Assembly (NCBI RefSeq): GCF_000346505.1
Contig: NZ_ANOH01000107.1
Location: 1 to 39,350 of the forward strand
DNA: 39,350 bases
Source: Aporhodopirellula sallentina SM41
GTDB lineage: Bacteria; Planctomycetota; Planctomycetia; Pirellulales; Pirellulaceae
Direction of reading: 5' to 3'
Position 1 is the stretch's first letter, and every line of letters begins with the position of its first letter. Positions 1,504 through 27,443 of this stretch are shown here, in pieces. The translations under genes were made by a program, and so were the position numbers. Under the pieces are notes generated by a model. The model made no database searches, was not told the origin of the DNA, and saw nothing but the letters and a program-made list of their open reading frames with translations.

Positions 1504-4482
1504 TCACGCATCCCGGTACGGAAGTGAAATGCGGAAGCAAGCACCGGGCGTTTCGTTCTCCACGACTTCGATCTGCCCCCCATGTCGCTGAACAATCTGT
1601 CGGCAGATGGACAACCCCAATCCGGTTCCGGTCACCTTCGACGTGACGAGCGGTTCGAACAGATTGTCTCGCAATTTTTGCGGAATTCCGGGCCCACTGT
1701 CCCGGACACAAATCACGTTGACGGAGTCTCGACACGTTGCGCTGAACGAAAGCTCGCCTTTGCCGCCCATCGCTTGAACCGCGTTGCGAATCAGGTTCGA
1801 TATCACTTGCCTAAATTGACCAGCGTCAACGTGAAAGACGAACGGATCCGGATCGAGGACGATCGAGACCTTTACCCCCGATACCCCTTCCGTGCTTGAA
1901 ATAGCCTCGTCAAGAATTTCACGCAAATCGACTCGTTCGGTAACAGGTTCTTTCGCCCGGGTCATTTCCAAAAGGTTGTTGATGATTTGATCCGCCCGGC
2001 CCGTCTGTCGATCGATCACGTCAAGGAATCGCGTTGACTTCCCATCGTCATTCAATCCGTAATTCTTCAGATAGTAGGCGGCAGTCCGCAGCGCACCGAG
2101 TGGATTCCTGAGTTCGTGTGCGATACTCCCCGACAACTGTCCCACCGCCGCCAATCGCGTTTTGCGAACGAGCTCTTCCCGCGTTTTCTCGAGTTCAGCT
2201 TCCACACGCAACTTGGCTTCGTTCTGTTGCTCGAGCAATTGTTGCTGCGTCACACGGTACTTCGCCTCCGACCGACGCCGTTCGACAATCTCTCCAATCA
2301 ATCGCGCGGAACTCGCGACATGCTCTTTCGCCATTTCAATAATGTATTTGGGACGAGGTTTGTAACTCGACGCGGCTTGACGAAGCACCTTCACGTCGAC
2401 CTGATACTCATCGGCGATCTTCTTGAAAGATTCCGAGTGAAACTCCGGCACACGTTCCCAGACGCTGATTGCACCTACAACGTCGTCCCCGGACCGAATT
2501 GGCACCGCATAGACTCTGCTGCCGCAGTTACTAACATGATTGACCGGTCGTCCGCATTCGATTGCCGATGCCGCGGCGCGGTCCCAACTTTGCACGTGAT
2601 GGATCCACTTACCTGACCGAAGCGCCTCGCGATTGTCGCTGGTATCACACAGTTTGCGAGAGCTTTGATCCAAACACCGGCACCATTCTGAATAGAGCAA
2701 ACGGCATGCGTAATCACCATTGCTTTCATACACACTGATACTTGTCCCTAGCAACGACATCAGCTCAACGGCGATATCATGCAAGGACTTTCGACCGACC
2801 GAGTCGGCAATCAAACGACACTCATTCAACTCGGTCAGGTCACCATACGCAGGTTGCTTATCAAGCTCCTGCAAAATTCCCGACACGGATTTTGTAAGCA
2901 GCCATTCGATCCGACGCAGTTCTTCTTCCGTGCTCTTGCGTTCGGTAATGTCTTGAGCCATACCGACAAACTTCAACGGCCCTCCGACGTCATTGCAGAC
3001 GATTTCCACCATGGTATGAATCCACGCAATCGCGCCGTCAGGGCGAACGATACGAAACTCGTATTCGAACGGCCCCGAACCTTTGCGTATCATGTGCTCC
3101 ACGTTCTCTTCCCACCACGGAAGATCATCCGGGTGGACTAATGAACGTACCAGATCGAAGGTGGGCTTCTGAAATCTCACGCCGAAGACTTCGTACATGC
3201 TGGCGGACCATTTCAGATCTCGCGTTGCAATGTTCAGTTCCCAACTACCCGCACGTGCGATGTACTCAGCCTGCTCTCGGATTCGCTGATTCTCGCTCAG
3301 TTCATTCAGGGCGAGTTGGCGTTCCTCGGCCAAACGTATTAGTTCTCTTTCGGCCTCTTTTTGCGCCGTCGTTTCGAGTACCTCGACGACGTAGCCGATG
3401 GTATCGTCCTTGATTCGAAACGGGACCACGTGCATATCGAGGTCAATCGTCCCGGAGCGGTTCGTTGGAAACTGCAACTGCTCTTTCGCCGAATCAAAAT
3501 CGAACTCGGCTGAAATCTGTACCGCGTTACCCTTCTTCAATTCGGCGCCATCTTCAGGCGATAATTTGGGGTCATCCCAAAAGTTGAAGTTCTTCAGAAA
3601 ATCCAGGTTCTCGAGACCGAACAGTTCCAGGGTTTTCTGATTCACACGAATCAGATTTCCCCGAAGATCGTATAGCTGAATCGCTACCGAAGATTGCTCA
3701 TAGAGACTGCGGAACTTTTCTTCACTTTCGACCAGTTGCTGCTGCACCCGTCGGTGATCAGTGATGTCCCACGTGGCGACCTGTACTCTCTCCAGCGTCT
3801 CTTCCGCACCAGGCAGAACTGCCCATTTGAGATAGACAGGAACTTCATTTCCGTCGATCGTTTGAACAACGCATTCTGCTTCAACCACCGTTCGTTTTTC
3901 CGCGATCGCAACGAGTTGTTCTTCAAAGACTCGAAACGCGTCTTCGGTGAACACCGCTGAAAGATTGGCGAGTAGCATTTCTTTGGACTCGGCACCGTGC
4001 AATCGCATCGCCGCAAAATTGACATCGACGATCTGCAACAAGTCGGCACATGTTTTCACCGCATCCGGATTCTCCCGGAAATACTCGCGAAAGTTTTCGA
4101 CTCCCTCACGCCGCCGCTCCTCAATGAAGTCCTTGATGTGAGAGTAATTGTCCTCCCAAAGCGGCACCGGCGAATTTTCAAAGAACGCGTAGTAGCTGTC
4201 AGTGGCCTGATCCGACGAGCGGCGTTCTAACGTCGTCGCGGCATTTCGGGCTTCACCGATGGTATCTTCCGAGGAGACACCCATGTCACCCGAAGACACC
4301 ACACCGGTACCAGGCACATCAGGCTGAGGACAGTCATCCATCGTACCGGAGCACAATGCCTCGAAGACTTCCTCCGTTTCGGCCAAACGTCTTCGCAGCC
4401 CTTCAATTTCAGAACGCATTCTTTGTGCTTTCAAAGTATGCGATTCCGACGAGTCCCGCAGGGATGTGTCTCCCTCTTTCAT
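1504..4482 (-). CDS. PAS/PocR-like sensor histidine kinase
   Basis: This is a 992-residue sensor kinase with no clear membrane segment. Three PAS-type segments lie at about 80-220, 230-365 and 380-500. Residues 565-690 form a Cys-rich PocR-like sensory domain (C593, C601, C603, C612, C643, C653), with an AVPI motif near its end. A coiled coil leads to HisKA with H789 in AHELRNPLGAL, then HATPase_c with the N box NLIRNAVQAM and G boxes DSGPGIP and GTGLGLS. There is no receiver, so it must act on a separate regulator; the FixJ-like protein upstream is a good candidate. I chose ATG 4482 because GGAGGG lies 6 bases upstream of it. A GTG at 4545 would add 21 residues but has no such site. A ligand for the Cys-rich domain (metal, redox or small molecule) is inference. 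Confidence 0.92.
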   Translation of the reverse strand: MKEGDTSLRDSSESHTLKAQRMRSEIEGLRRRLAETEEVFEALCSGTMDDCPQPDVPGTGVVSSGDMGVSSEDTIGEARNAATTLERRSSDQATDSYYAFFENSPVPLWEDNYSHIKDFIEERRREGVENFREYFRENPDAVKTCADLLQIVDVNFAAMRLHGAESKEMLLANLSAVFTEDAFRVFEEQLVAIAEKRTVVEAECVVQTIDGNEVPVYLKWAVLPGAEETLERVQVATWDITDHRRVQQQLVESEEKFRSLYEQSSVAIQLYDLRGNLIRVNQKTLELFGLENLDFLKNFNFWDDPKLSPEDGAELKKGNAVQISAEFDFDSAKEQLQFPTNRSGTIDLDMHVVPFRIKDDTIGYVVEVLETTAQKEAERELIRLAEERQLALNELSENQRIREQAEYIARAGSWELNIATRDLKWSASMYEVFGVRFQKPTFDLVRSLVHPDDLPWWEENVEHMIRKGSGPFEYEFRIVRPDGAIAWIHTMVEIVCNDVGGPLKFVGMAQDITERKSTEEELRRIEWLLTKSVSGILQELDKQPAYGDLTELNECRLIADSVGRKSLHDIAVELMSLLGTSISVYESNGDYACRLLYSEWCRCLDQSSRKLCDTSDNREALRSGKWIHHVQSWDRAAASAIECGRPVNHVSNCGSRVYAVPIRSGDDVVGAISVWERVPEFHSESFKKIADEYQVDVKVLRQAASSYKPRPKYIIEMAKEHVASSARLIGEIVERRRSEAKYRVTQQQLLEQQNEAKLRVEAELEKTREELVRKTRLAAVGQLSGSIAHELRNPLGALRTAAYYLKNYGLNDDGKSTRFLDVIDRQTGRADQIINNLLEMTRAKEPVTERVDLREILDEAISSTEGVSGVKVSIVLDPDPFVFHVDAGQFRQVISNLIRNAVQAMGGKGELSFSATCRDSVNVICVRDSGPGIPQKLRDNLFEPLVTSKVTGTGLGLSICRQIVQRHGGQIEVVENETPGACFRISLPYRDA

Positions 4483-4915
4483 ATTGTGCCCTCCATCGTG
4501 TTCCGCTTGCCCCGATGTCCCACTCACGGCGATCTTCCTGATCACCGGTTGAGCGGTCGCTACTCGTTACATCTGATGTAAGTGAGTTGCACGGATACCC
4601 CTTCCGCGTCACTCCACACACGGCCGCATTACCAACACGACCGAGTCCCCCACACCGCTGTACAGTCCATGCCGCGATACAGTCCATGCTGCTGTACAGT
4701 CCATTCCGCTGCGCTACCCACACAGCTTCGACAGCTCATGCCAGGCTACCCAAATGGTCTTTCCACCACCTGCCTATTTCATAGAGCAAGTTAGGTAGCC
4801 GCGCCGCCAAACGCGAGCCATCTACCAATGGTACCGCTTGGGAACCCCCACTCCAACCGCAGTCCCTGCCTCCGCAACGCTCAAATTGCAATCAACCGTC
4901 GTAACGTCCGGCCGC
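4483..4915. other. Non-coding interval between the regulator and kinase genes
   Basis: These 433 bases separate the minus-strand FixJ-like regulator from the minus-strand kinase. I see no convincing gene. The only clear structure is a three-copy 17-base tandem repeat, listed separately. The promoter of the kinase gene is expected here, but I could not pick out -35 and -10 elements with confidence. Confidence 0.5.
4657..4707. repeat. Three tandem 17-base repeats upstream of a kinase gene
   Basis: Three contiguous units start at 4657, 4674 and 4691. The consensus is GCTGTACAGTCCATGCC; unit 2 has GCGAT at the start and unit 3 has ATTCC at the end. The period of 17 is not a multiple of three, so this is not a peptide repeat. 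Each unit carries a TGTACA or TATACA-like core. The array sits 175 to 225 bases upstream of the kinase start at 4482, a plausible place for a regulator array, but no binding protein is known from the sequence. Confidence 0.8.
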
Positions 4916-5554
4916 CTATGTCCCCGGTTTTGCCTCGACGGCCAGGCGGTGCTCGGTAACCATGGCCACGAGTTGGGCAACCGATTCCACCTTCATCCGT
5001 TTGGTGATCTTGCTGCGGTGAACTTCAACCGTCTTGGGAGAGATATCGAGCCGAGACGCGATGTTCTTGGTCGCGAGCCCGTCGACCACCAGGTACATGA
5101 TCTCACGTTCGCGTGGACTGAGCCCCTCAATCAACTGCCCAATTTCATCGAGGCGTGACTGGCGGCTTCGCGACACTTGGTCGGCTTCGATCGCATCGGC
5201 CACGCGTTGTTTCAGATGCGTGATATCGAGCGGTTTCTCCAGAAAATCGACTGCCCCGAGGCGAAGGCTCTTCGTTGCATCTTGGATACCGGCATTGCCA
5301 GACATAAACAGAATCGGAATACGAATCTCCCGCTCGACCATCGCCTCCTGAAGAGCATGCCCACTCATGCCGGCCAGGCACAGATCGAGTACCAAACATC
5401 CTGGCCCGACGTCGCAATACTGTTCCAGAAATGACTCCGCCGACGGCAATGCAACCACTTCATGTCCGACTTGCTCAAGGCACCGAACAACGGCTCGTAG
5501 AACAACTTCGTCGTCATCGACAACATAAACGGTCGATCGCATCTCGAAACTCAT
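4916..5554 (-). CDS. FixJ-type response regulator (receiver plus LuxR-type HTH)
   Basis: This is a two-component transcription regulator. From the start at 5554 it has 212 residues, the usual FixJ length. The receiver shows VVDDDE, phospho-acceptor Asp in LVLDLCLAGMSG (residue 57) and Lys in FLEKPLD (residue 107). The C-terminal third is a LuxR/FixJ helix-turn-helix with LSPREREIM and SPKTVEVHRSKI. An upstream ATG at 5626 would add 24 residues; neither start has a strong ribosome site, and I prefer 5554 because family members begin only a few residues before the first receiver strand. It lies upstream of two PAS kinases on the same strand and divergent from the H-NOX operon. A phosphorylated regulator acting on this shared intergenic region is plausible but not shown. 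Confidence 0.9.
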   Translation of the reverse strand: MSFEMRSTVYVVDDDEVVLRAVVRCLEQVGHEVVALPSAESFLEQYCDVGPGCLVLDLCLAGMSGHALQEAMVEREIRIPILFMSGNAGIQDATKSLRLGAVDFLEKPLDITHLKQRVADAIEADQVSRSRQSRLDEIGQLIEGLSPREREIMYLVVDGLATKNIASRLDISPKTVEVHRSKITKRMKVESVAQLVAMVTEHRLAVEAKPGT

Positions 5555-5819
5555 GTCAACGTATCGTGAGAGTTGACTCGAATACTGCTCGGGAAACAAA
5601 GGTCGAGCAATGTCGCGAACGTTCATTCACGATCGGACACTCGGAAGTTTCGACGTGCCCCATCAAATCAACGAACCCGAGAGACACGCGGCGAATTCCG
5701 CCTCGCAATCCGGCGACCTAATCGACGTGCCCCTTAAAACCGTTTCTCTCCTCATCAGCCAAATTCCAACGGCGACGTCTTTTAACGAGAGTCAGGGTTA
5801 TCACGATCGTATGAGAAAA

Positions 5820-6295: not shown

Positions 6296-7378
6296 ATGTA
6301 TCCATCACTCTTCTTTCGACTCAACTTCATCCGGATCAACCGATATCTGTTCGCAATTGTTCTTTCAGCAACTGCGGCTCTGTTCCTCATGCGTGCGTGC
6401 TTACGCGGTGCGCAAAAGCAAAGCTGGTCATCAGTTACGTCGGCAATAATTCCAAACGAATCGACTATTGACGCGTCCGCTCTGCTAACGGATCTCCTTC
6501 AAACCGGCCCCGTCTCGCTGCTGCCGGCCTCGGTAATGATCCTGTGTGGCATCGTCGCGGCCGTTGTGTCGACAACCTTCCGAAACCCGCTGCGACATGC
6601 ATGCGCTATTTCACAGGGACATGCCGGGGCATCCTTTTCTCATTCGGACGTTTCGTTCCACGAAGCACTTTCTGCAGTCGCAACCGTTTCAGACTCGCAT
6701 CAAGTTGCAACGTTCACGCCACGGTCAAAACCCGAGCCCGACGCGAGTGTTGAATCTGACGAAACGCAGCAGTGGACTGTCGAAAAGCTACGCACGTTCA
6801 GCCGCGTTGTTCAACAGAGTCCCGCTTCCGTCGTGATCACCGATTCGAAAGCTAAGATTGTTTACGTGAACCCGCGTTTCGAAGAAGTCTCCGGTTACAG
6901 CGCAGCCGAAGCCATTGGGCAAACGCCTCGAATTCTCAACTCGGGCATCCATCCGCCCGAATTCTATACCGAAATGTGGAAAACACTCGGCCAGGGCAAA
7001 ATTTGGCGCGGCGAGATTTGCAACCGGCACCGATCCGGCGAACTCTTTTGGGAAGACACATCTATCACCGCGGTCTTCGACGACAACGGCAAAATCGCCA
7101 ATTACGTGGGGATCAAAATCGACATCACGACTCGAAAACGCATGGAGACTCAGCTAAACGCGCAACTCGAGTCACTCGAAAAAATGAATCGATCACTCGA
7201 GGAACTCAGCCAACGAGAAAAACAAACCAGTCAATCACTGCAGAACAAGATTGAAGAATTGGAGGCGTTCAACCGGATCGCCATCGGCCGCGAGATGCGA
7301 ATCATCGCACTCAAGAATGAAATCAATCAATTGTGCGTCGCCAACGGCGGAGCACCAAAGTACGAAATCGCAAAATAG
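6296..7378 (+). CDS. Membrane-anchored PAS domain protein, first gene of the H-NOX operon
   Basis: This is a 360-residue protein without kinase, GGDEF or other output domain. Two hydrophobic segments at about 18-37 and 68-92 suggest it is anchored in the inner membrane. A variable linker leads to one PAS domain at about 165-285, with NPRFEEVSGY, GQTPRILNSG and the W-x-GEI-NRH segment seen in NifL/MmoS-like PAS domains; FAD binding is possible but unproven. A coiled coil follows, and the end carries the GREMRIIALKNEINQL motif common at the C-terminus of PAS sensor modules. I chose ATG 6296 because AAGGGG precedes it by 7 bases; TTG 6293 is the other option. The H-NOX gene starts 11 bases after its stop, so it is probably cotranscribed. 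It may act as a membrane redox or partner sensor for the adjacent kinase; that role is inference. Confidence 0.85.
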   Translation: MYPSLFFRLNFIRINRYLFAIVLSATAALFLMRACLRGAQKQSWSSVTSAIIPNESTIDASALLTDLLQTGPVSLLPASVMILCGIVAAVVSTTFRNPLRHACAISQGHAGASFSHSDVSFHEALSAVATVSDSHQVATFTPRSKPEPDASVESDETQQWTVEKLRTFSRVVQQSPASVVITDSKAKIVYVNPRFEEVSGYSAAEAIGQTPRILNSGIHPPEFYTEMWKTLGQGKIWRGEICNRHRSGELFWEDTSITAVFDDNGKIANYVGIKIDITTRKRMETQLNAQLESLEKMNRSLEELSQREKQTSQSLQNKIEELEAFNRIAIGREMRIIALKNEINQLCVANGGAPKYEIAK

Positions 7379-7389
7379 GACACAGCAAG

Positions 7390-8013
7390 ATGAAGGGCGT
7401 GGTCAACAAGGGGCTCCAAGAGTTGGTCGAACATACGCACGGCGAAGAAACCTGGGAAACCATCCGCCAGGTCGTCAATTGCGACGTGAATTCGTTTTGG
7501 CCGGCACAAGACTATCCCGATGAATTAACCATCGCTCTCTTCATAGCGACGGCTCGGCACCTTCACGTCTCACCCGACGAAATCATGGTGGAGTTCGGAA
7601 AATTCTGGCTCAACAACACCGGTAAAAACGTCTACCCCAAACTGTTTGCGCTGGTCGGCAATAACTCTCGCGACTTCCTGCGGAAATTGGACTTCATCCA
7701 TCAACAAGCCACGATCAGTCTCCCGGGAACCCGCGGATTTCAACTTCGTTCGGAAGAACTGCCCGACGGCGGTCTGAGAATGTTCTACACGTCGGACCTT
7801 CCTCTTTGCCCTGTACTACATGGGTTGATCTTAGGCGCCGGAATCCATTTCAACCAAACCCTTCAGGTTCAGGAGATGCAATGCACCCGTCGAGGCGATC
7901 CGGAATGCGCCTTCGACGTGCACTTCACCGACGCATGTCCTGCCACGACTCCTCCCGCAGCAGCAGCAGCAGATTGCCGTGATGAGATCGAATATCAGCA
8001 GGTGCTGCAATGA
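7390..8013 (+). CDS. H-NOX (HNOB) heme nitric oxide sensor protein
   Basis: This 207-residue cytoplasmic protein starts with [13 protein letters not shown] and continues with GEETWETI, the typical H-NOX N-terminus. H104 in LDFIHQQ fits the proximal heme ligand and P112 the heme-contacting proline. The propionate-binding motif YxSxR reads Y133-T-S135-D-L137, so the arginine is leucine. By hand alignment the position of the distal tyrosine that stabilises oxygen in O2-binding members is V142, which favours NO over O2 sensing. C140, C165 and C173 match three cysteines of the zinc site described in gammaproteobacterial members, while the fourth ligand (His) is E162. A Pro/Ala-rich tail of about 25 residues follows. 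The stop overlaps the next ATG by 4 bases (ATGA), tying it to the HNOBA kinase. An AGGA lies 9 bases before the start. Confidence 0.93.
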
Positions 8014-10541
8014 ATACAAAGATGGACTCGATCGACATCCAATCACTCACCCGTCTTGGCAGTTGCGTCCTAGTTGTTGACGCCTCCGACGAAATTCAGT
8101 GGGCGTCCGACTGCGTCACCCGTCTCGCGGGCCGCGATTTGGTGGGGACCAAGCTCGACGAGATTGTCACCGAATCGGACCGCCCGATCGTCGCCTTTTC
8201 CATCCGAACGCCAGGCCCGCTGCCATGCCCACTGCGTGGTGCTTGGCTCCCAACAGGCGACGAAGCCCATCGATGCTTCGTCGGATCTCCCGTTCCCAAT
8301 TCAACGGAAGAGATGACCCAAATCGGTCTGCAAATCGATGACTTCGTCGAAAGCGATAGCTGGTTGAGCTATCTCATCTTGGCCGACGAAGCCGCAGCGA
8401 CGGAACAGGTAACCGCGGCCCGAATCGAACGCCTCAAGGAAGAACAAAAGAAACTCGGCGAAGCCAACCGTCACCTGGAGGACGCGCGGCAAGCAACCCT
8501 GAACATGATGTTCGACTTGGAGGAGGCTCGTCACGCCGCCGAAGAAGCCACCCAAGCGAAAAGTCAATTTCTCGCGAGCATGAGTCACGAGTTGAGAACA
8601 CCGCTCAACGGCATCATCGGCATGTCCGATCTGCTCGCCGGTACCAACCTCACCGCCAAACAATCTCAGTTCGTTGATGCCTGCCGCAGCAGTGGCGAAA
8701 CACTACTCACCCTGATCAACGACATCCTCGACTTCTCCAAAATCGAAGCCGGCAAGGTGGAACTGGAGACGCATGAGTTTGACCTCGAACTGCTAGCGAC
8801 CGACACCGTCGATGCGATGACATGGCGTGCCAAACAGAAAGGGCTGGAGATGCCATGCCGCGTCGCGCGGGACGCATGTCTTCTATTCGAAGGCGATTCC
8901 GGACGTTTGCGTCAAATCTTGACCAACCTCCTCAGTAACGCGGTCAAGTTCGCCGACGAAGGGGAGATTACCCTATCGGTGGAGGTCGTCGATCAATCCG
9001 CTGACGAAACCACGATCAGGTTTGAAGTCGCCGATACCGGAATCGGCATTCCCGAGGATCGAATCGATCGCCTCTTCGGGGCCTTCTCTCAAATTGATTC
9101 CTCGGTCACTCGTAAATACGGCGGCACCGGACTCGGACTATCGATCTCCCAAAGCCTCGTCAAGTTGATGGGAGGCACGATTGGTGTTGAGAGCGAAGAG
9201 GGAGTCGGGTCCACCTTCTGGTTTGAAATCCCGTTCGGCACCGGGACCCCCAAAATCAAACCGGTTGGATGCTCGACCAAGATCACCGCTCAACGCATCC
9301 TGATCGTTGACGACAACAAGACCAACCGCACCGTGCTAGCAGAGTACACGTCAGAGTGCGGGCACGTCAGTACGCCGGTCGCCTCGTTCGAAGAAGCAAT
9401 CGCTGCTATCGAAACCTCGAACGAACACAACCAACCGTACAACTTGGTTTTCACTGACTATCACATGCCGCATCGCGATGGCCTGGAACTGGCGACCGCG
9501 ATCCACGATCAATACGACATTCCTATTGCTTTGATTTCATCCATCGGTCTCGACCTCGAACCGGACGAACTAAAGCAATACGGAGTCGACCGAGTCCTCC
9601 ACAAACCGCTGCGTCGCGGCGATATTTGCGAGACGATTCGTTCTATCATTGGGAAACACGGCCAGCCCGATTCGCAAAAACAAGACACGCATCGCATCGC
9701 CGGCGATGACATCAACAGCCATCTTCTGTTGGTCGAAGACAACGCCATCAATCGCATGTACATGGTTGAGGTCATTCAACAACTCGGTTGCACATGCGAC
9801 ACAGCCTGCAACGGCGAAGAAGCAGTCGATGCGATCCAAAGAAACCACTACGACGTCGTATTGATGGATTGCCAAATGCCGGTCATGGATGGGCTCGAGG
9901 CAACTCGGCGAATTCGACGCATCGAATCTGAAACGAATTCATCCTCTCCCCTGACGATCGTGGCGCTGACGGCAAACGCAATTAAAGGCGATCGCGAAAA
10001 ATGCATCGAGGCGGGAATGGACGACTATCTGACCAAACCCATCAAGGTCGAGAAGGTGAGAGAACTGCTAGAGACGTTGCATCACACGCAGACCTCGGAT
10101 CCCGAGACGGAAACGGCCCCCTGCGAAATCGAACCGTCGACGAACAGGGCAACGCCATCGCCGGCAATCGAAGCAAACTCAATGCTCTCACGCTGCTTTG
10201 GCAACCTGGAGTTTGCTTGTTCGTTGTTGGACGAATTGGAATCCACCGGACTCCAACGGGTCGAAGACATCCGTGTCCCTGCTCTGGAGCAAGATGCCTC
10301 CGGGATGGCGGGAGCCGCGCACTCACTCAAAGGTGCCGCCGGCATCCTCTGTGCCGAAGCGTTACAGGACATCGCCGCCAGAATTGAACAAGCAGGCCGG
10401 GAGTCAGAGCTAGATAACGTCGACACCATGCTCGCGGAACTCAGCTCTGAAATGCGTCGCTGCCTCGACTATCTGCCCATCCTAAAAGAAGAACTCAAAT
10501 CTGCCACCTGCGAGAAAGAACATGGAAGTCTTAGTAGTTGA
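8010..10541 (+). CDS. HNOBA hybrid histidine kinase with two receivers and HPt, partner of H-NOX
   Basis: An 843-residue multidomain kinase. Residues 10-150 resemble the HNOBA (H-NOX-associated, PAS-like) domain: RGAWLP, a FVGSPV strand, then IGLQIDDF and a run into a coiled coil at about 128-185. HisKA has H193 in [10 protein letters not shown]. HATPase_c lies at about 290-410, with [16 protein letters not shown] and GGTGLGLS. Receiver 1 (430-545) has its Asp in FTDYHMP; receiver 2 (573-690) has it in [11 protein letters not shown]. The C-terminal HPt has H771 in AHSLKGAAG. The order is that of a BarA-like phosphorelay kinase. No membrane segment is seen, so it should be cytoplasmic and controlled by direct H-NOX contact. 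It overlaps the H-NOX gene by 4 bases and the HD-GYP gene by 20, so translation is probably coupled. The HPt can be expected to feed the receivers of the next two proteins; that is inference. Confidence 0.95.
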
Positions 10542-11601
10542 TGACGAGGTTATCTCCCGCCGCATGATTGAGAACACGCTTCAAGAAGGCGGCTATCAGG
10601 TCACGACGGCGACCAACGGTTGTGAAGCTCTCGAAATTCTAAAGCAACGTCCCATCCAACTGGTGGTGGTCGATTGGGAAATGCCGGTGATGGATGGAAT
10701 CGAGTTTTGCCAGTCGGTGCGCAGCGGCGACTCGTCACGCTACGTGTACATCGTCATGCTGACCTCTCGCAGTCAACCGAGCGATGCGATTTCGGGCTTG
10801 TCAGTCGGTGCGGACGACTTCGTTACCAAACCATTTGATCCGGTTGAACTCATCATGAGAATCCACTCCGGAAGACGCGTCGTCGCCATGGAAAGCCGCG
10901 ACCTGATGATCTTTGCATTGGCAAAACTGGCAGAATCACGAGACCCCGAAACAGGTGCTCACCTCGACCGTGTCCGCAACTACTGCCGCATACTCGCCCT
11001 GCATCTGCAACGGCAGGTTCGCTTCCAAGACGAAGTCGATGATGAGTTCATTCGCTTGCTTTATGACACGAGCCCCTTGCATGACATCGGCAAGGTCAGC
11101 ATCCCGGACCACGTGTTGCTTAAACCCGCTCGGCTGACCACCGATGAATTTGAGATCATGAAGACACACACGATCCGTGGAGCCGAAACGATTGAATCCA
11201 TGATGGAACAATTTCCCAACGCAGCGTTCCTGAAAATGGCCCGTGACATCACGTTGTCACACCACGAGAAGTACGACGGGCGCGGGTACCCACATGGAGT
11301 GGCCGGCGAGCAAATCCCGCTCTGCAGTCGCATCGTTGCCGTCGCGGACGTTTACGACGCGCTGACCTCCAAACGAATCTACAAGAAAGCGTATTCACAC
11401 AGCCGCGCCAAATCCGCCATCGTCGCCGGATCGGGAAAGCACTTTGATCCCGCGATCGTCGACGCCTTCCTCGACAACGAAGATTCATTCATCGCGACAC
11501 GGAAACGCTTCCAAGACAACCTCACGTGCACAACTCACGGCATGCCTGTGACGAACACACCATTTGAATTAGTTCCCGCCATGATGGGACAAGAGCTATG
11601 A
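10522..11601 (+). CDS. Receiver-HD-GYP response regulator, probable c-di-GMP phosphodiesterase
   Basis: A 359-residue response regulator. The receiver (1-120) has acidic residues D7-D8, phospho-acceptor D51 and K103. The HD-GYP domain (about 125-325) is intact: H187-D188 in [13 protein letters not shown]247-H248-E249, and the signature D252-G-R-G255-Y256-P257, followed by [13 protein letters not shown]. Known members hydrolyse c-di-GMP to pGpG or GMP using a metal centre built from these residues. About 40 residues of unassigned tail follow. The start lies inside the kinase gene (20-base overlap), and its stop overlaps the HDOD gene by 4 bases. It should be the output that links NO sensing to c-di-GMP level. 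In the H-NOX network of Shewanella the comparable HD-GYP protein is degenerate and regulatory; here the catalytic residues look complete. Confidence 0.95.
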
Positions 11602-13496
11602 GCACCACAATTGACCAACAGGACTATCACGCACTGGTTGTCGACGACGACCCGATTGTACGACGGATGGTTTCATTCGCATTGGCCCAAGAAGGCTTCC
11701 ATTGCAGATCGGCAAACGACGGCCAAGACGCGCTTTCGCAGCTCAGCGACTACGCGTACGACCTACTCGTGACCGATCTCCGCATGCCCAAGAAACACGG
11801 ACACTCGCTCGCGGTCGACGTGCTCTCCCAAGGATTGTGCCCAACGATCATTGTTCATACCTCCGTCGGAGACGCACGACTAACCAAAGATTTGATCATC
11901 CGCGGCGTCCATGATGTCGTCTACAAGCCGACCGATTACGAAACGTTCGCCGCCAAAGCAAAGGGGCTCGTGGTTCGCGAACGAAAACAAAACCTGTCAC
12001 CACCGCCACGCACAAAACCGACCTCCGCGGATAGCCAACAGATCGCTCGGACCAAAGCACCTCCGCCTCCGGCACCGGCCCCCGAATCCATTGCAGAATC
12101 CATTGCTGAACCTGCCCCTACGCGGACCGACAACGAACCAAACACCCCCACACAGCCTGAGCCCGCGACGGCCTCACCCCCCACCGCAGCCACCAAAAAC
12201 GAACGGCCCAAACCGGACGGCTGTGCGCCGATCGAAATGGCCGAAATGCAGGACCGTTTGACCGACGTTTCGAAAGTGCTGCCGATCTCCCACGCCGCCG
12301 TCGACGTTGCCAACATGGCCGTGTCCGGAAACTTCGACGCCGACCGACTCGTGGCCGCGATGCAGCGAGACTCCACGGTCGAGTCGAAAATACTACAACT
12401 CGCAAACCATCCCTTCTACAACCCCGGCGGGAAACGCGTTCGAGACATCAAGCAGGCGGTACTGCGGATGGGTCAAAAACGCACCGGCGAGTTGGTGCTC
12501 GCAACGAGTGCTTTCTCATCGATCAAACCTGACACACTCCCGTGGATGGACGTTGAACTGACGTGGCAACAGAGCGTCGCTGCTGGCATTGCACTGGAAC
12601 TACTCATCAAAGCCGGGATGAAAGTCAGCGTATCCGAAGGCATGCTCTTCAGCACGTTGATGAATTCCGCCGGAAGAGTCGTGCTCGGATCACACTACCC
12701 CGAGTATTACGAATCGATGGCGAAAGCCTGTGCCAAATACAGCCAGCCGTTGATGATGTACGAGGAACAATTGTTCCCACAAAGCTACGCGGAAGTCATG
12801 TGCGGCTTGCTCGCCGATTGGGACATCCCGAAAAACGTGTTTGATCCCCTTCAGCACATTCTGGAGCCTTATTCTGCATTGGCGAAGCTTCCCGATCCGA
12901 TGCGAACCAAGGTCGAACTCGTCAAACTGGCCACTCTGATCGGCCACATCGCAGTTGGCCGATGGGAGCCTTGGGAGATGGTCGAACTGCCTCGAAATAG
13001 CGTCTACGAACGACTCGGCATCACCTCCATCTCGCAGGTGATCGAGGATACCCGATCGCAATTACCGGGCATTCCCTGCCTGCGTAATACGGAAGGTCAT
13101 CTATCAAATGGCCAGAACACGCCGAGTCAGGCGGCAACGGATCAACACAGCGTGCGAAAACTCGACTACATCAATCTTTCAGACGAGAAGCACGATTTCC
13201 TCGCCGACATTGTTTCGTCGATGGGAATCCAGTTGGAAGAACACCATTTCAAACAAGGCAAAGGAAGCAACCACGTTCTCATCAACCGCATCGGCGCCGA
13301 ACAGAGTCAGAAGAAATGCAAGATCGTCGCTAGTGTCGACTGCGATACGATTGTCATCGTCCGCGATTCTCTGAACGACGCAATTGCTCCTGCCTTGGTC
13401 GGCCCTGGACTCGAGCTGCCGTGCAGTTTCGCGAGATTGCAGTCGGCCTGCCTCAATGCCGCCACGACCGACGACAAAACGGCTCAGCCAAACTAG
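11598..13496 (+). CDS. Receiver-HDOD signalling protein, last gene of the H-NOX operon
   Basis: A 632-residue protein. The receiver (10-120) has acidic residues VVDDD, phospho-acceptor D60 and K110. A Pro/Ala/Thr-rich linker at about 130-205 leads to an HDOD domain at about 210-420, with VLPISHAAVDVANMA and a SKILQLANHPFYN segment followed by IKQAVLRMG. HDOD proteins resemble HD phosphohydrolases but lack the metal-binding His-Asp pair and act as signalling scaffolds. The last 110 residues form a separate segment I cannot assign. The gene overlaps the HD-GYP gene by 4 bases (ATGA). It is probably a second phosphorylation target of the H-NOX kinase; its downstream partner is unknown. The next gene is convergent and begins 37 bases away, with no clear terminator between. 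Confidence 0.9.
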   Translation: MSTTIDQQDYHALVVDDDPIVRRMVSFALAQEGFHCRSANDGQDALSQLSDYAYDLLVTDLRMPKKHGHSLAVDVLSQGLCPTIIVHTSVGDARLTKDLIIRGVHDVVYKPTDYETFAAKAKGLVVRERKQNLSPPPRTKPTSADSQQIARTKAPPPPAPAPESIAESIAEPAPTRTDNEPNTPTQPEPATASPPTAATKNERPKPDGCAPIEMAEMQDRLTDVSKVLPISHAAVDVANMAVSGNFDADRLVAAMQRDSTVESKILQLANHPFYNPGGKRVRDIKQAVLRMGQKRTGELVLATSAFSSIKPDTLPWMDVELTWQQSVAAGIALELLIKAGMKVSVSEGMLFSTLMNSAGRVVLGSHYPEYYESMAKACAKYSQPLMMYEEQLFPQSYAEVMCGLLADWDIPKNVFDPLQHILEPYSALAKLPDPMRTKVELVKLATLIGHIAVGRWEPWEMVELPRNSVYERLGITSISQVIEDTRSQLPGIPCLRNTEGHLSNGQNTPSQAATDQHSVRKLDYINLSDEKHDFLADIVSSMGIQLEEHHFKQGKGSNHVLINRIGAEQSQKKCKIVASVDCDTIVIVRDSLNDAIAPALVGPGLELPCSFARLQSACLNAATTDDKTAQPN

Positions 13497-13533: not shown

Positions 13534-15795
13534 TCACTCGGTCGTTCGAAACGGAAGCTCACGAGCAGTCAACCATACCGACGGCTGCAGATCCTTCCCG
13601 CCGTCCTTCATTCCCAACAACACGACCTCGATTTCCTTTCCGAGGAACGTCTCGTCGACCGGGAAATAGTACGTGTACCCTGTTTTGTATTTTCGAACCG
13701 GATACTCCCACGCGTTCGTCGGGTACGACACAGCTCGATTCGCCGCTCCGATAAACTGCCCGTCCATCTTCAGAGCCGCGTAACAACCTTCCACACCATG
13801 CTCGCCGTCGACGGCAACGCAGAGATACGAGGTCGGCGTAACTTCATCGAGCGTGACGTTCGCGGACCATGATCCGACGGCCGGAACCGCCTGGGGATGT
13901 GCAAAGAGATTGCTACCTCTCCATTGGTCACGAGGCAAGATAGTATCGTCTTTGTACGCCTCCACCTCAGCGATCCGTTCAGGACAATAACGCATTCTCA
14001 AATAACGCCACGGTCCCGGTTTGGGATAGATTCGCAATCTCGATGCATTCTGAACGACCTCTTCCACAGGCGCCCAATTGGCCAAATCATTGCTCGTCTG
14101 AGCTTTGAAATACTTGTTGCGAATCAAAGTTCGGTCGTTCGCCTGCGTCTCGATCACAATTTTGTCAAAATCGATCGGCTTCGCAAAATCAACGCGAAGG
14201 CACCCACTCGCGATCCGTTGATCCTTCGCATTGACGTAGATGTCGAAGACCGTGCCGGGATCTCCATCGAACATGAAATCATCCCAAAGTGCACGCGACT
14301 TGATCAGTTCCTGTCCGACGAACGCCTGACGGGCGTTTTCGACCGCGGGAATGTCGGTCGGCCCGGAACGTTCGAGGCTGCGTATCTCCAGTGCGTTGTT
14401 GTCGGCTGCGAAACAGGTTGATTCATAATAGCCCTGCCAATCACCAGGTAGCTTCGACGGTTCGAGATCAGCGAGCTTGCGGTGCCATGGCTTTTTCAAA
14501 GCAATCGGTTCGAGCCGTTTGATAACCGACTGCTCTCCCACCACATTCTTGATGACTCGGTAAGGCCCCTCGGCGATAGACGGCTCATCACACCCAGCGG
14601 TGGTCGCCATGATCAACGCCGCGCGAAACGGATAGACCGTCACCTTCACCGAGTCGGTAGGACTGTAGTCCGTTCCGATCACTTCCTCGTACGGATGAAA
14701 CAACCGCACCTCACGCGGCTCCTCTCCCACCAATCCGACGCTTTCGTCCAACGCGATCTCATACGTCACCGGTTCCCACGTCAGATTGCGCAGCGTGATC
14801 AATCGGGTTTGCTCGTCTCCCCGAGAAACCGCATGCGGCCCGTATTTGTCCTCTGGCAAAACCATGCCGTTGACCAAGATGTCTCGGTAGCGTCGATGTA
14901 GATTGAAGATCCGAGCCAACTTCGGGTACTCATCATCCCGCAGAAACCACGGGCTGCCATAAATTTCAGGTGCGAGAATCATCGACCGGTTGAACGCCTG
15001 CAGAATGAGATCGTCGTCCCAATAGTCCAGGCAGGATGAGATGCAGACACCATGATCTTCAGCCAAACGCTTCAGTTCTGGCGGCAGACCGCGACTGAGT
15101 GCTTGAGCGCGGTTGTGCGTGGCAGGCTTTCGATTTGCCATGTGCACGCCTATATAGGTCTCGGCCCCTTCCCACAGAAACGTCGTCGCGTGCGGCGTGG
15201 CCGGACCGAGATTCAACCGGTGATTCAGCATGATGAGGTCTGGACTGTGCTTGCGACACTCCGTCATTAGCTCCGCAAACGCTTGCTGTTTCTCCGTTCG
15301 TAACTGCCCGCACACCGCATCCATCTTGAACAACTCAAACTGATGGTCACGACAGAGCGACGCTAGCAGGTTGATACGTTGTTGCTTTTCCGATTCGGTA
15401 TCGCCAAAACCATCCGGTCCCAACCACACCCCCAATCGCCCGCCAAAGCCCTTTGCTTGTTCCGCATAAGGAGCAAATCCATTTGGAAACTGTTCACGAA
15501 ACTTGACCGTGTTTGGCTTCCCGTAGTAATGCGGTGCATCGATCGCCCCGGCGTCAAAGGCATAGATGTCCAGCGTCATGCCGTACTCATCCTTGAGCCA
15601 TTGGAAGAACGCAAGATTCGCTTCGGTTTGCCCCGGGGCAGGCCCCTCGTTCGTGTTGTTGATCCAGGTGAAGTAGTGTGCCCTCGAAGGCGACGACTCA
15701 TCCGCACCGGGGTAGACGTCCTCTCCGACGATTGAATCGGGTGGAAGCAGCAAGGCGATCGCTGCGAGAAGAACGACGAGCATACGACGATTCAT
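13534..15795 (-). CDS. Secreted glycoside hydrolase-like protein (GH-D clan type) with C-terminal beta-sandwich
   Basis: From ATG 15795 this is 753 residues, starting with a signal peptide (MNRRMLVVLLAAIALLLPP, probable cleavage after about residue 24). The N-terminal half reads as a TIM barrel of alpha-galactosidase type: LDIYAFDAG early, GRLGVWLGPDG, and FKMD, which fits the K-x-D nucleophile motif of clan GH-D. A region at about 500-640 resembles a discoidin/F5-F8-type binding fold (IDFDKIVIETQ, WRYLRMRYCPERIAEVEAY). A second beta-rich part at the end resembles NPCBM-type domains. The upstream codons to 15924 are in frame but precede the signal peptide, and a GGAA lies just before 15795. 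The substrate cannot be read; a sulfated or complex glycan would suit the sulfatases elsewhere in the window. Confidence 0.8.
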   Translation of the reverse strand: MNRRMLVVLLAAIALLLPPDSIVGEDVYPGADESSPSRAHYFTWINNTNEGPAPGQTEANLAFFQWLKDEYGMTLDIYAFDAGAIDAPHYYGKPNTVKFREQFPNGFAPYAEQAKGFGGRLGVWLGPDGFGDTESEKQQRINLLASLCRDHQFELFKMDAVCGQLRTEKQQAFAELMTECRKHSPDLIMLNHRLNLGPATPHATTFLWEGAETYIGVHMANRKPATHNRAQALSRGLPPELKRLAEDHGVCISSCLDYWDDDLILQAFNRSMILAPEIYGSPWFLRDDEYPKLARIFNLHRRYRDILVNGMVLPEDKYGPHAVSRGDEQTRLITLRNLTWEPVTYEIALDESVGLVGEEPREVRLFHPYEEVIGTDYSPTDSVKVTVYPFRAALIMATTAGCDEPSIAEGPYRVIKNVVGEQSVIKRLEPIALKKPWHRKLADLEPSKLPGDWQGYYESTCFAADNNALEIRSLERSGPTDIPAVENARQAFVGQELIKSRALWDDFMFDGDPGTVFDIYVNAKDQRIASGCLRVDFAKPIDFDKIVIETQANDRTLIRNKYFKAQTSNDLANWAPVEEVVQNASRLRIYPKPGPWRYLRMRYCPERIAEVEAYKDDTILPRDQWRGSNLFAHPQAVPAVGSWSANVTLDEVTPTSYLCVAVDGEHGVEGCYAALKMDGQFIGAANRAVSYPTNAWEYPVRKYKTGYTYYFPVDETFLGKEIEVVLLGMKDGGKDLQPSVWLTARELPFRTTE

Positions 15796-16670
15796 TTCGT
15801 TTCCATGGAAAGCTGAGCTTTGATACGGCCCACCAAACTCGCGACATTCTCGCTCGCGCTGGCGGGTGTTTTTCGATTGGCTGCCGATCGGGTAATCAAC
15901 ACATTTGTAAACGGCACTGCGCACAAACGTTCAAAGCTTTATCTGATCGTCGGCGCGTAGCATCCGTGATATCCACTCGATGGCGAAATTCAATGCCCGC
16001 CCTCCTACAGAAGCGGAAAAGGGTGCCACACGCATCGTTAATGGGAGCTTGTGGAAACGCCCCAAAGCCCAGCAGACAGCCGCGATCAGATGCGCACAAA
16101 CAAGGAGCCTCCCCCTGAACACACCGTTCGGCAGGCATTCGCCGCAGCGACCGCGCGATCACCCCGACGCGTCTAGAGAAAACCAAACAACAGCGACAAC
16201 AGAACCGTTCCGATGACGGAAACGATGATCGAGCCGATACAGCCGAGGCGGTTGGAAAAGAAAGCGAACATTTTGCAGGCAATTTACAGACAGAGAATCG
16301 GGAAGCGGGCAAACGCGTTGACCTTCACAACACGTTCCGGGCATTCCCGCCTTTCATTATCACAGCTTCACTGCCACACCGCTCGCATTTTCTGTTCCAG
16401 ATTCAATTCTCGTTTCAACCGCGGTCGCGTAGCCGCCTATGAGGCTTTGCATACAAATCATCGACTCACCGACATCCTCTCCGAACAGCGAAACCATACC
16501 TCCAACGAGACGTCCCAATCTCGATCCATCTGTCATCGGATTCCAATCCATGAGCGAGCGTCATCGGAACGCAGTATGCAGGTTCCCTTCGCAAGCAGCG
16601 TCTCTGACCGAATGGTCTCCCTCCCACTCGCTGCCTCCCTTTCCCCATCCGTTTCAACTAAGGAGAACCG
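15796..16670. other. Gene-poor interval
   Basis: About 875 bases lie between the glycoside hydrolase and the DUF4142 gene. Apart from a possible 32-codon minus-strand gene (16173-16271) I see only open frames without recognisable sequence or good ribosome sites. The last 20 bases carry the AAGGAG site of the DUF4142 gene. The divergent promoters of both flanking genes should be here. Confidence 0.45.
16173..16271 (-). CDS. Possible 32-residue single-pass membrane peptide
   Basis: The minus strand from ATG 16271 encodes a peptide beginning MFAFFSNRLGCIGSIIV and ending in a hydrophobic stretch with a stop at 16173-16175. It has one predicted membrane helix, a short charged segment (NR) and a GCIGS motif. 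Very short membrane peptides with a similar NRLGC-GSI pattern are, as far as I recall, common in planctomycete and proteobacterial annotations. No clear ribosome site precedes it, which lowers confidence. The function is unknown. Confidence 0.4.
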   Translation of the reverse strand: MFAFFSNRLGCIGSIIVSVIGTVLLSLLFGFL

Positions 16671-26222: not shown

Positions 26223-27443
26223 ATGTCTAGGAAAAAAGTTAATAGCGGTTTCACTTTGGTGGAGTTGCTCGTGGTGATCGCCATCATTGGTGTGTTGGTT
26301 GGATTATTGCTTCCTGCAGTCCAAGCAGCGCGAGAAGCAGCACGACGAATGAGCTGCAGCAATAACTTCAAACAACTCGGCTTGGCACTGCATAATTACC
26401 ACAGTGCGTTCAATCAGATTCCACAACACGGAACCGGCACCACCGCTCCGGCCAGCAACAGCAGCAACCGATACATGCTCAGCGGATTCCCAGGCATGCT
26501 TCCTTTCATGGAACAGCAGGCTTTGTGGGAACAAATCAAAAACCCCGCCAACGGTATCCAGCCGATGGGAATTGCACCGGATCAATCGTTCGGTCCTTGG
26601 GATACCGAAATCCCTACACTGCGTTGCCCGAGCGATCCCGGCGTCGGATTGCCATCGGCAGGCCGAACCAACTACGGGTTTAGCGTTGGCGATGCGTTGT
26701 ACCTGGTTCACAGTGGCGGCAAGAACCGAGTCGGCGCATGGGACTGGGAAAACAGCGGCAAAACAGACAGCCGCGAAGCAGCCGATGACAGCGACTTCAC
26801 CAACGCCAACAACAGCTCCATCGCCGCCGTCGCCCGCACGACGAACCGTGGTTTCTTCTGGGTACGCACCGCTACCAAGTTCCGCGACGTTGTCGATGGC
26901 CTGGCAAACACGATCGCAATGGGCGAGCAAGCTACCAGTTTGGGAACTGGCGAAATCAACTCGGACTTTGTACGTCACTTGAACGCGGGGCAGGGGATGC
27001 CACTGATGGACAACCCGAGCTGGTGCAACGATCTCTACATCGACCCAGCCCGACCTCAGTTCTATCTCGGCAGCGGTCTTCCCAACAGCGCCGTGGTCCA
27101 ACAAGACGGTGGCTCGAAAGGTTACCGATGGGCCATGTTCCGCGGAGCCCACACGTCGGTATACACCATCCTCCCACCCAACAGCATCTCTTGCTTCACC
27201 GGAACCACTAACTCTCAGGGTATCAATTCCATGGGCAGTCGCCATCAAGGCGGATGTCACATCCTGATGGGTGACGGTGCCGTTCGTTTCGTCACCGAAA
27301 GCATCGAGGCCGGTACGCAAACCTCACCTCCGGTCGGATCCAGCGCAGCCGGTGCACCTGCTCCGGGTGCCGCGAGTCCATACGGATTGTGGGGTGCCCT
27401 GGGAACTCGTGGCGGTAAGGAAGTGATCGACGGAGAATTCTAA
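26223..27443 (+). CDS. DUF1559 prepilin-type protein, copy 1
   Basis: A 406-residue protein of the planctomycete DUF1559 family. The N-terminus has a type IV prepilin-like signal: cleavage between G9 and F10, with T-L-V-E14 and a hydrophobic helix LLVVIAIIGVLVGLLLP. The family motif AAREAARRMSC-NNFKQ-GLALHNYH follows directly. The conserved end has RHQGGCHILMGDGAVRF (the H-x9-DG motif) and GLWGALGTRGGKE. Planctomycetes carry tens to hundreds of such genes; the function is unknown, with pseudopilin or surface roles proposed. A paralog of identical length lies at 33099. It is followed by a strong terminator. The start is ATG 26223 after a weak GAGAAAG. Confidence 0.95.
   Translation: MSRKKVNSGFTLVELLVVIAIIGVLVGLLLPAVQAAREAARRMSCSNNFKQLGLALHNYHSAFNQIPQHGTGTTAPASNSSNRYMLSGFPGMLPFMEQQALWEQIKNPANGIQPMGIAPDQSFGPWDTEIPTLRCPSDPGVGLPSAGRTNYGFSVGDALYLVHSGGKNRVGAWDWENSGKTDSREAADDSDFTNANNSSIAAVARTTNRGFFWVRTATKFRDVVDGLANTIAMGEQATSLGTGEINSDFVRHLNAGQGMPLMDNPSWCNDLYIDPARPQFYLGSGLPNSAVVQQDGGSKGYRWAMFRGAHTSVYTILPPNSISCFTGTTNSQGINSMGSRHQGGCHILMGDGAVRFVTESIEAGTQTSPPVGSSAAGAPAPGAASPYGLWGALGTRGGKEVIDGEF

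Follow-up and report, generated by a model that had tools for sequence, protein, structure and literature searches.

An H-NOX/HNOBA sensor pair beside a kinase/HD-GYP/HDOD output module in a planctomycete operon

Results

A five-gene operon combines H-NOX, a phosphorelay kinase, HD-GYP and HDOD

We analysed a 39,350-nucleotide stretch of the Aporhodopirellula sallentina SM41 genome (contig NZ_ANOH01000107.1, positions 1 to 39,350; hereafter the window), which carries a five-gene unit on the + strand at positions 6296-13496. According to Pfam, the order is membrane-PAS, H-NOX, HNOBA-HisKA-HATPase-REC-REC-HPt, REC-HD-GYP and REC-HDOD (Table 1). Every gene opens with ATG, and the successive spacings from gene 1 to gene 5 are +11, -4, -20 and -4 bases, so the gene content and tight packing described in a first-pass annotation of this DNA were borne out. 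As detailed below, the genes for the kinase, HD-GYP and HDOD proteins have their closest relatives in loci of the same family that lack H-NOX. We therefore consider it probable, with some reserve, that an H-NOX/HNOBA sensor pair was put in charge of a pre-existing, RpfC/RpfG-like kinase/HD-GYP/HDOD module and works as proposed in the Discussion.

The unit is bordered by a divergent gene (4916-5626, - strand) and a convergent gene (13534-15924, - strand). Gene 2 is the only HNOB match in the whole genome; HDOD has eight matches (three above 70 bits), and HD_5 also has eight, two of them within one frame. Because such matches are so few in a genome of 8.19 Mb, the meeting of H-NOX, HD-GYP and HDOD within 7 kb is not due to chance. 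A promoter scan gave 0 promoter-like sites (3.4 expected), and a terminator scan gave 11 terminator-like sites (10.8 in shuffled sequence). The GC profile ranges from 0.51 to 0.60 without a break at the H-NOX/kinase junction, which speaks against recent import and against misassembly, though weakly.

Table 1. Features of the five-gene unit (window coordinates)
Feature	Position	Strand	Basis
Gene 1: membrane protein, single NifL-type PAS, C-terminal coiled stub	6296..7378	+	Pfam, hydrophobicity, structure matches
Gene 1 PAS domain	about 6797-7129	+	PAS_9, E 2.6e-15
Gene 2: stand-alone H-NOX, HNOB at residues 2-161	7390..8013	+	Pfam HNOB 2e-35
His104, proximal heme ligand, kept	7699..7701	+	His in 95/99 other H-NOX
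Phe117 where the proximal Pro is conserved	7738..7740	+	Pro in 88/99 other H-NOX
Leu137 in place of the YxSxR Arg	7798..7800	+	Arg in 88/99 other H-NOX; Y133, S135 kept
Cys140, Cys165, Cys173 (first to last codon)	7807..7908	+	Spacing equals S. oneidensis Cys139/164/172
Gene 3: HNOBA-HisKA-HATPase-REC-REC-HPt hybrid kinase	8010..10541	+	Pfam
HNOBA domain, matching the second half of the Pfam model	8232..8513	+	Pfam PF07701
HisKA (SHELRTPL) and HATPase_c	8556..9236	+	Pfam, motifs
Two receiver domains, phosphoacceptor Asp motifs in both	9294..10070	+	Pfam, motifs
HPt domain, AHSLKGAAG	10224..10445	+	Pfam Hpt 1.5e-8, motif
Gene 4: REC-HD-GYP, HD and GYP motifs intact	10522..11601	+	Pfam REC and HD_5 5e-29; motifs
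Gene 5: REC, Pro-rich linker, HDOD, C-terminal region of about 200 residues	11598..13496	+	Pfam REC and HDOD 5e-24

The HNOBA kinase with two receivers and HPt that had been annotated as gene 3 was confirmed by Pfam and motifs. Its HNOBA domain, adjacent to the H-NOX gene, reaches 26.9 bits against PF07701 (E 3.9e-6; cut-off 23.4) and 82.6 bits with our own profile, which was grown from the same set and is not independent. No hydrophobic segment was found. By its domains and motifs, gene 3 carries every part of a phosphorelay.

The HD-GYP domain of gene 4 is intact, as previously claimed: the HD motif reads LHDIGK, and the HD, H, HH and D ligands as well as GYP are kept in invariant alignment columns. 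Among solved structures, its closest relatives are 4r8z, entered as a cyclic di-GMP phosphodiesterase, and 4mcw, entered as a metal dependent phosphohydrolase and presumably the HD-GYP enzyme PmGH. Gene 4 is thus predicted to encode an enzyme that degrades cyclic di-GMP (c-di-GMP). GGDEF has 11 matches in the genome, nine of them strong, which supports the earlier view of a two-component pathway leading to c-di-GMP. Among the matches listed, the three nearest named relatives of gene 4 are planctomycete proteins from metagenome-assembled genomes (MAGs), and its top NCBIfam match is NosR (175 bits, cut-off 400).

In gene 5, the sequence NSAGRV stands where HD[I/V]GK is found in HDOD proteins encoded by four of the recurrent H-NOX operons (see below). 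HDOD proteins without catalytic residues are described in PMC4114195, as far as the cited passages go, and gene 5 probably encodes a non-catalytic partner binder.

Relatives of genes 3-5 occur in the family without H-NOX

A search with gene 5 found matches in at least 22 other genomes of the 241 in the family; as five candidates were scored per genome, 23/241 (the window's included) is a lower bound. The match in G799 turned out to be a receiver belonging to a different protein; G746, G811 and G872, whose matches are short receiver frames, were also set aside, leaving 18 genomes (G and L numbers denote genomes and loci of our survey). None of these 18 has an H-NOX match: 16 were judged by PF07700, 11 of them in the scan of relatives' genomes given below and five (G442, G447, G641, G644, G714) in the class sample, and two, G791 and G792, by a protein search that is weaker than PF07700 and missed some H-NOX, e.g. 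in G274. G746 likewise gave no PF07700 match. We examined 26 loci around the HDOD-search matches, one of which lies in the host genome. An HDOD frame is present in 25 of them and H-NOX in none within the stretches examined. The C-terminal region of gene 5 (window 12885-13493, about 200 residues) has no Pfam match; our own profile finds the same region in 19 of these 26 loci.

The HD-GYP search used an alignment of gene 4 and four H-NOX-linked relatives as query, and 80 of the at least 589 loci found were taken, with unequal flanks and some short contigs. In none of these 80 did our own profiles detect H-NOX or HDOD; a kinase gene adjoins HD-GYP in 47. The first-pass annotation had regarded the occurrence of these genes apart from H-NOX as an argument against its reading. 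The 80 HD-GYP loci and the 18 genomes with HDOD relatives reveal exactly such an occurrence; it shows modularity and not absence of function in the window operon.

The loci closest to the window in all three output genes are L323 (474/435/316 bits for kinase core, HD-GYP and HDOD) and L317 (445/407/363 bits), both with the same order and close junctions. L331 follows with 306/433/153 bits and an HDOD in a split frame, while in L333 (521/335 bits for kinase core and HD-GYP) the third gene is a REC-Ser/Thr-kinase. The window kinase core had no role in finding these loci, and its own matches rank L333 (521 bits), L334 (508), L323 (474) and L317 (445) before L218 (388). No H-NOX-linked kinase is among its seven best matches; the best one reached 349 bits, measured against the whole gene 3 protein. 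When 12 genomes with HDOD or HD-GYP relatives were scanned with PF07700, 11 gave no match, and the genomes of both L323 and L317 are among these. The remaining one, G757, does encode an H-NOX, at a distance of 113 kb from its HD-GYP relative.

In the HD-GYP tree, gene 4 groups with the three planctomycete MAG proteins L218-L220 (Shimodaira-Hasegawa-like approximate likelihood ratio test, SH-aLRT, 97), and a single clade of gene 4 with the four intact H-NOX-linked HD-GYPs was rejected by the approximately unbiased (AU) test (p-AU 0.023). A first tree that had placed gene 4 with the H-NOX-linked HD-GYPs (support 0.86) was overturned by wider sampling.

The kinases of these loci differ in their N-terminal heads. 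The L317 kinase carries CHASE and PAS, that of L323 ETR1_N (ethylene-receptor N-terminal domain) and PAS, and that of L333 a weak PAS; none was found in L331. Hybrid kinases with ETR1_N occur in three REC-HDOD loci of the host's family (L323:11903-16153, L334:5369-9556 and L329:11144-14068); ETR1_N is again joined to PAS in L334 and L329, where HDOD is present and an HD-GYP gene absent. An ammonium transporter fused to a PAS-HK-REC-HPt kinase (HK, histidine kinase), with REC-HD-GYP directly after it and HDOD absent, was observed in L314:4217-8050 (same genus) and L218:6019-9954 (a MAG). L317, L323 and L331, together with the kinase/HD-GYP pairs of L314 and L218, resemble the window in having, among all frames compared, the nearest sequences and gene order for genes 3-5 or 3-4. 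They differ in that their heads are CHASE, ethylene-receptor-like, ammonium-transporter or unassigned, and H-NOX is not beside them. The plain reading of these comparisons is that heads would have been exchanged, with HNOBA and a separate H-NOX as partner in the case of the window kinase; we infer the direction and date of this exchange.

Recurrent H-NOX operons of planctomycetes represent other lineages

HNOB is present in 42/392 genomes sampled from the phylum, 54/397 from the class and 3/13 from the genus. We scored 102 H-NOX loci with profiles built from the proteins of the window, which very distant domains may escape. Of the 60 rows of the class set, we excluded the own locus and one fragment each from G512, G494 and G423; of the 53 rows of the phylum set, we excluded the own locus, three duplicates of the class set, four G360 fragments and a second G295 row. 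A frame of up to 330 amino acids was counted as stand-alone H-NOX, and a kinase was counted if it had the same orientation and was no more than 8 kb away. In the class/genus set, 36 of 58 loci are stand-alone, 29 of them with a kinase, 16 with HD-GYP and 10 with HD-GYP and HDOD. In the phylum set, 39 of 44 are stand-alone (kinase in 32, HNOBA in 19, HD-GYP in five, HD-GYP and HDOD in three), and only L122 has HNOBA, HD-GYP and HDOD together (1/39).

Hence H-NOX lies beside HD-GYP and HDOD in 13 of 75 stand-alone planctomycete loci, and the combination is recurrent, not unique. In all 13, the HD-GYP lacks one or both catalytic motifs by motif pattern (L136 keeps HDLGK); a second, intact HD-GYP is present in four. 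Among the H-NOX loci scored, the window alone has HNOBA, HDOD and an intact HD-GYP. The first-pass annotation had suspected a different and undescribed layout. No paper in the open-access library searched contains both 'H-NOX' and 'planctomycet', or both 'H-NOX' and 'HDOD', subscription papers being mostly outside this search, and the open-access papers with planctomycet and HD-GYP have neither term in any title or abstract. The papers searched thus gave no description, which is no proof that none is in print, and the novelty of the layout is limited by the 13 loci, including L122 with its HNOBA kinase.

Ten of the recurrent operons (L061, L064, L065, L067, L068, L072, L078, L110, L162, L163) consist of H-NOX, PAS-HK, REC-HDOD and a degenerate REC-HD-GYP, often with a second HK and lone receivers; four of the ten have an intact HD-GYP besides. 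Fusions of HNOB with Pkinase, a Ser/Thr protein kinase domain, were also observed in L077:8998-10527, L087:3404-4984 and L100:8962-10581, that is, in all three long H-NOX frames that were Pfam-scanned out of the 22 in the class/genus set.

Among the 241 family genomes, the H-NOX most similar to that of the window in a protein search is 32% identical to it. A tree of 103 H-NOX domains places that of the window as sister to 20 rows from HNOBA-kinase loci (support 82), one of which, L150, has a weak HNOBA score (18.5 bits). The H-NOX of the ten recurrent operons fall elsewhere. We also considered the window operon as a copy of a recurrent H-NOX operon and rejected this, as its H-NOX, HD-GYP and HDOD relatives all lie elsewhere. 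The recurrent operons (the ten and L122, L136 and L143) share with the window a joint set of H-NOX, kinase(s), HD-GYP and HDOD genes; L122 moreover encodes an HNOBA kinase, and its H-NOX falls in the clade nearest the window's. However, their HD-GYPs, and in the first ten also the H-NOX, belong to other lineages, none has an HNOBA-HPt hybrid, and in each an HD-GYP is short of catalytic motif(s). By sequence, the window operon is a lineage apart from them; its kinase core, HD-GYP and HDOD match family loci without H-NOX in the same order.

The H-NOX has an altered heme pocket and a complete three-cysteine site

Gene 2 scores 122.6 bits against HNOB, well above the cut-off of 25.5, and its best solved relative is H-NOX Alr2278 (E 1.6e-23). 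Heme residues were counted in 103 other H-NOX rows, four of which were without a needed column, leaving 99. The proximal histidine is kept, while the proximal proline and the arginine of the YxSxR heme-propionate motif are replaced (Table 1), so that this motif is incomplete and reads YTSDL. Trp73, a residue with a role in the distal pocket, is invariant in a nine-row alignment. Passages of PMC8196705 state that YxSxR steadies the heme propionates. For the heme-free alpha subunit of soluble guanylate cyclase (sGC), the same passages note that residue loss was first blamed and that structures point to an N-terminal extension. Lost heme motifs are therefore no proof of lost heme, and an extension of this kind is not present on the window H-NOX. 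An apo form of sGC is mentioned in a passage of PMC3212528, as earlier seen with the R139 mutant. Four of the 99 planctomycete H-NOX (L110, L113, L153, L158) do not have the heme histidine; L110 lies within an H-NOX/kinase/HD-GYP/HDOD operon.

The three cysteines and the heme histidine (103 to 104) are all shifted by +1 relative to the Shewanella oneidensis numbering. At the fourth zinc-ligand position the window has Glu162, not the His/Gln of zinc-type H-NOX, and there is no cysteine in the Cys165-Cys173 interval, where Vibrio cholerae has Cys177. All three cysteines are found in 36 of 104 H-NOX rows (the window counted) and exactly two in none. As 31 of these 36 rows keep the arginine, the three-cysteine site alone is no proof of a heme-free state. 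In the V. cholerae H-NOX, the heme-free form senses oxidation at the zinc-type cysteine site and then inhibits the kinase, according to the part of PMC7108781 that deals with it.

Copper nitrite reductase, the only NO-making enzyme sought and our criterion for own nitric oxide (NO) production, has no match in the genome; NO from outside would still be possible. The conversion of NO into c-di-GMP changes foreseen by the first-pass annotation is thus less certain, given the lost arginine and proline, losses that alone are no proof against heme. The window H-NOX may sense NO, oxidants or both, and a redox input to the operon is a live alternative.

Gene 1 is a membrane protein with a putative flavin-type PAS domain

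Two stretches of the gene 1 frame are hydrophobic (residues 15-38 and 71-97), and the Pfam scan found no output domain, kinase included. Its PAS domain reaches 100.8 bits against the NifL model, which is under that model's whole-protein cut-off. The closest solved structures are 3ewk (the best; listed as 'sensor protein'), which we take to be MmoS, and 2gj3. The PAS domains of MmoS and NifL both bind flavin adenine dinucleotide. The best structure for the gene 5 HDOD, 3p3q, is listed as MmoQ, so that genes 1 and 5 both recall the MmoS/MmoQ pair. Unlike that pair, gene 1 has no kinase, the operon is different, and the flavin-type assignment of gene 1 comes from sequence similarity. The C-terminal end of gene 1 (window 7289-7375) reads REMRIIALKNEINQLCVANGGAPKY, followed by a short tail. 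A common linker was ruled out for this motif: the pattern is found in 0 other of about 12,500 frames.

Neighbouring genes

The divergent pair at window 1504-5626 (- strand) encodes a PAS-PAS-PocR-HisKA kinase and a receiver-LuxR-type response regulator. A DUF1559 protein, of a family that is a planctomycete hallmark, is found at position 26223.

Discussion

The operon recalls the Hno network (HnoX/K/B/D) of S. oneidensis and V. cholerae, in which a stand-alone H-NOX likewise adjoins a kinase and c-di-GMP response regulators. HnoD has a degenerate HD-GYP, whereas the motifs of the window HD-GYP are intact. Moreover, Pfam found no EAL regulator such as HnoB among the five genes, the kinase is of the HNOBA-HK-REC-REC-HPt type, HDOD and membrane PAS proteins are added, and the H-NOX is without the YxSxR arginine. 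With RpfC/RpfG of Xanthomonas the operon shares a REC- and HPt-bearing hybrid kinase whose gene adjoins one for REC-HD-GYP. The RpfC domain that senses the diffusible signal factor is membrane-borne, whereas the window kinase is soluble, HNOBA and a separate H-NOX replacing the sensory input domain of RpfC, and it has two receivers and an HDOD partner. NosP/NosK/NosR also comprise an auxiliary NO sensor, a kinase and an HD-GYP regulator, but the NosP sensor is a FIST domain, not H-NOX, and the HD-GYP of NosR as described in PMC12570481 is degenerate.

In the mechanism that we propose, the interactions and the path of the phosphate are inferred, as are the ligand, the direction of the response and any effect on attachment. 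The gene 2 H-NOX would bind the HNOBA-containing N-terminus of the soluble gene 3 kinase, and its heme/NO or thiol redox state would set kinase autophosphorylation, by analogy with Hno; for Shewanella, control of kinase autophosphorylation by H-NOX is presented as established in PMC8846402 and PMC7108781, in the parts cited here. Phosphate would then pass from His through receiver and HPt to the gene 4 receiver, by analogy with the RpfC/RpfG model, in which an HPt hybrid kinase relays to REC-HD-GYP (PMC3749722, section cited). The phosphorylated gene 4 receiver would switch c-di-GMP hydrolysis, and the gene 5 receiver would perhaps take phosphate from HPt too. Presumably, the GGDEF proteins of the genome supply c-di-GMP. 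Gene 1, with its flavin-type PAS, would provide an extra redox input from the membrane. With the Shewanella sign, less c-di-GMP would be hydrolysed upon ligand binding or oxidation, and attachment would be favoured.

Several observations weigh against a pre-existing module that came under H-NOX/HNOBA control. Only five of the 26 HDOD-search loci (L316, L317, L323, L331, L333) have an HD-GYP gene, and the trio is not uniform: the L316 kinase is different and split, and L333 is without HDOD. The PF07700 scan left out the genomes of L331 and L333. The HNOBA match is limited to positions 116-205 of the 216 of the model. Long branches occur in two of the trees, one (1.45) leading to the window H-NOX and others in parts of the HD-GYP tree away from gene 4. 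In the kinase tree, the window groups with L317, L321 and L323 at a support of only 82. A clade of the window with 17 HNOBA kinases is not rejected (p-AU 0.18, compared to 0.67 for the HNOBA kinases alone), so the whole kinase may have come with the HNOBA domain. A strong AU rejection (p 3e-37) was dropped, as it had no control with the group alone; 0.18 is the controlled value.

What the H-NOX senses can be read in different ways. It is quite possible, if somewhat short of probable, that gene 2 is a classical NO sensor whose heme binds NO and which inhibits the kinase, so that HD-GYP activity falls and c-di-GMP rises. The retained His104, Tyr133 and Ser135, the invariant Trp73 and the similarity to Alr2278 are consistent with this, the sign would be that of S. 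oneidensis (as given in the passages of PMC8846402), and the sGC alpha case in PMC8196705 makes motif loss a weak argument for an H-NOX without such an extension. Against it stand the exchange of Arg for Leu and of Pro for Phe, the apo form linked to the R139 mutant in PMC3212528, and the missing copper nitrite reductase match, external NO notwithstanding. The exchanged residues would instead fit a redox or thiol sensor in which heme is weak or absent and oxidation is sensed via Cys140/Cys165/Cys173, like the heme-free V. cholerae H-NOX. This agrees with the +1 register that the cysteines share with the heme histidine relative to S. oneidensis (residues as given in PMC7108781), with the survey, in which 36 rows have the full three-cysteine set and none has two of the three, and with the matches of the gene 1 PAS to the NifL model, 3ewk and 2gj3. 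We nevertheless regard it as doubtful, in view of the glutamate as fourth ligand, the missing counterpart of Cys177, the retained heme histidine and the arginine kept by most three-cysteine rows. The NO reading is thus the likelier of the two.

Finally, gene 1 or the kinase could receive the true input, the H-NOX being in decay or merely structural. Its long branch and changed pocket point in this direction, as does the loss of the heme histidine in four other planctomycete H-NOX, the one in the L110 operon among them. We consider this very unlikely, because the frame is open and overlaps the kinase gene by four bases, the cysteine site is complete, and the HNOBA partner domain is present. A more far-reaching version of the redox reading, in which an H-NOX turned zinc-thiolate redox switch and a membrane flavin PAS would command a swappable kinase/HD-GYP/HDOD module via HNOBA, a module that relatives would connect to ethylene-receptor-like, ammonium-transporter or CHASE heads, appears unlikely. 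If it were true, a single output module would read several small-molecule inputs through the exchange of heads.

Returning to the H-NOX/HNOBA pair in charge of a pre-existing module, the window and its family loci would represent a natural experiment in sensor exchange, with kin kinase-HPt/HD-GYP(/HDOD) outputs under H-NOX and HNOBA, CHASE, ethylene-receptor-like and ammonium-transporter heads. A comparison of these systems may reveal how sensors are coupled to a relay that stays conserved, and what HDOD proteins contribute next to HD-GYP enzymes. The window H-NOX itself, with its broken heme-propionate motif and full three-cysteine site, would be a case in which natural redox sensing by H-NOX can be studied.

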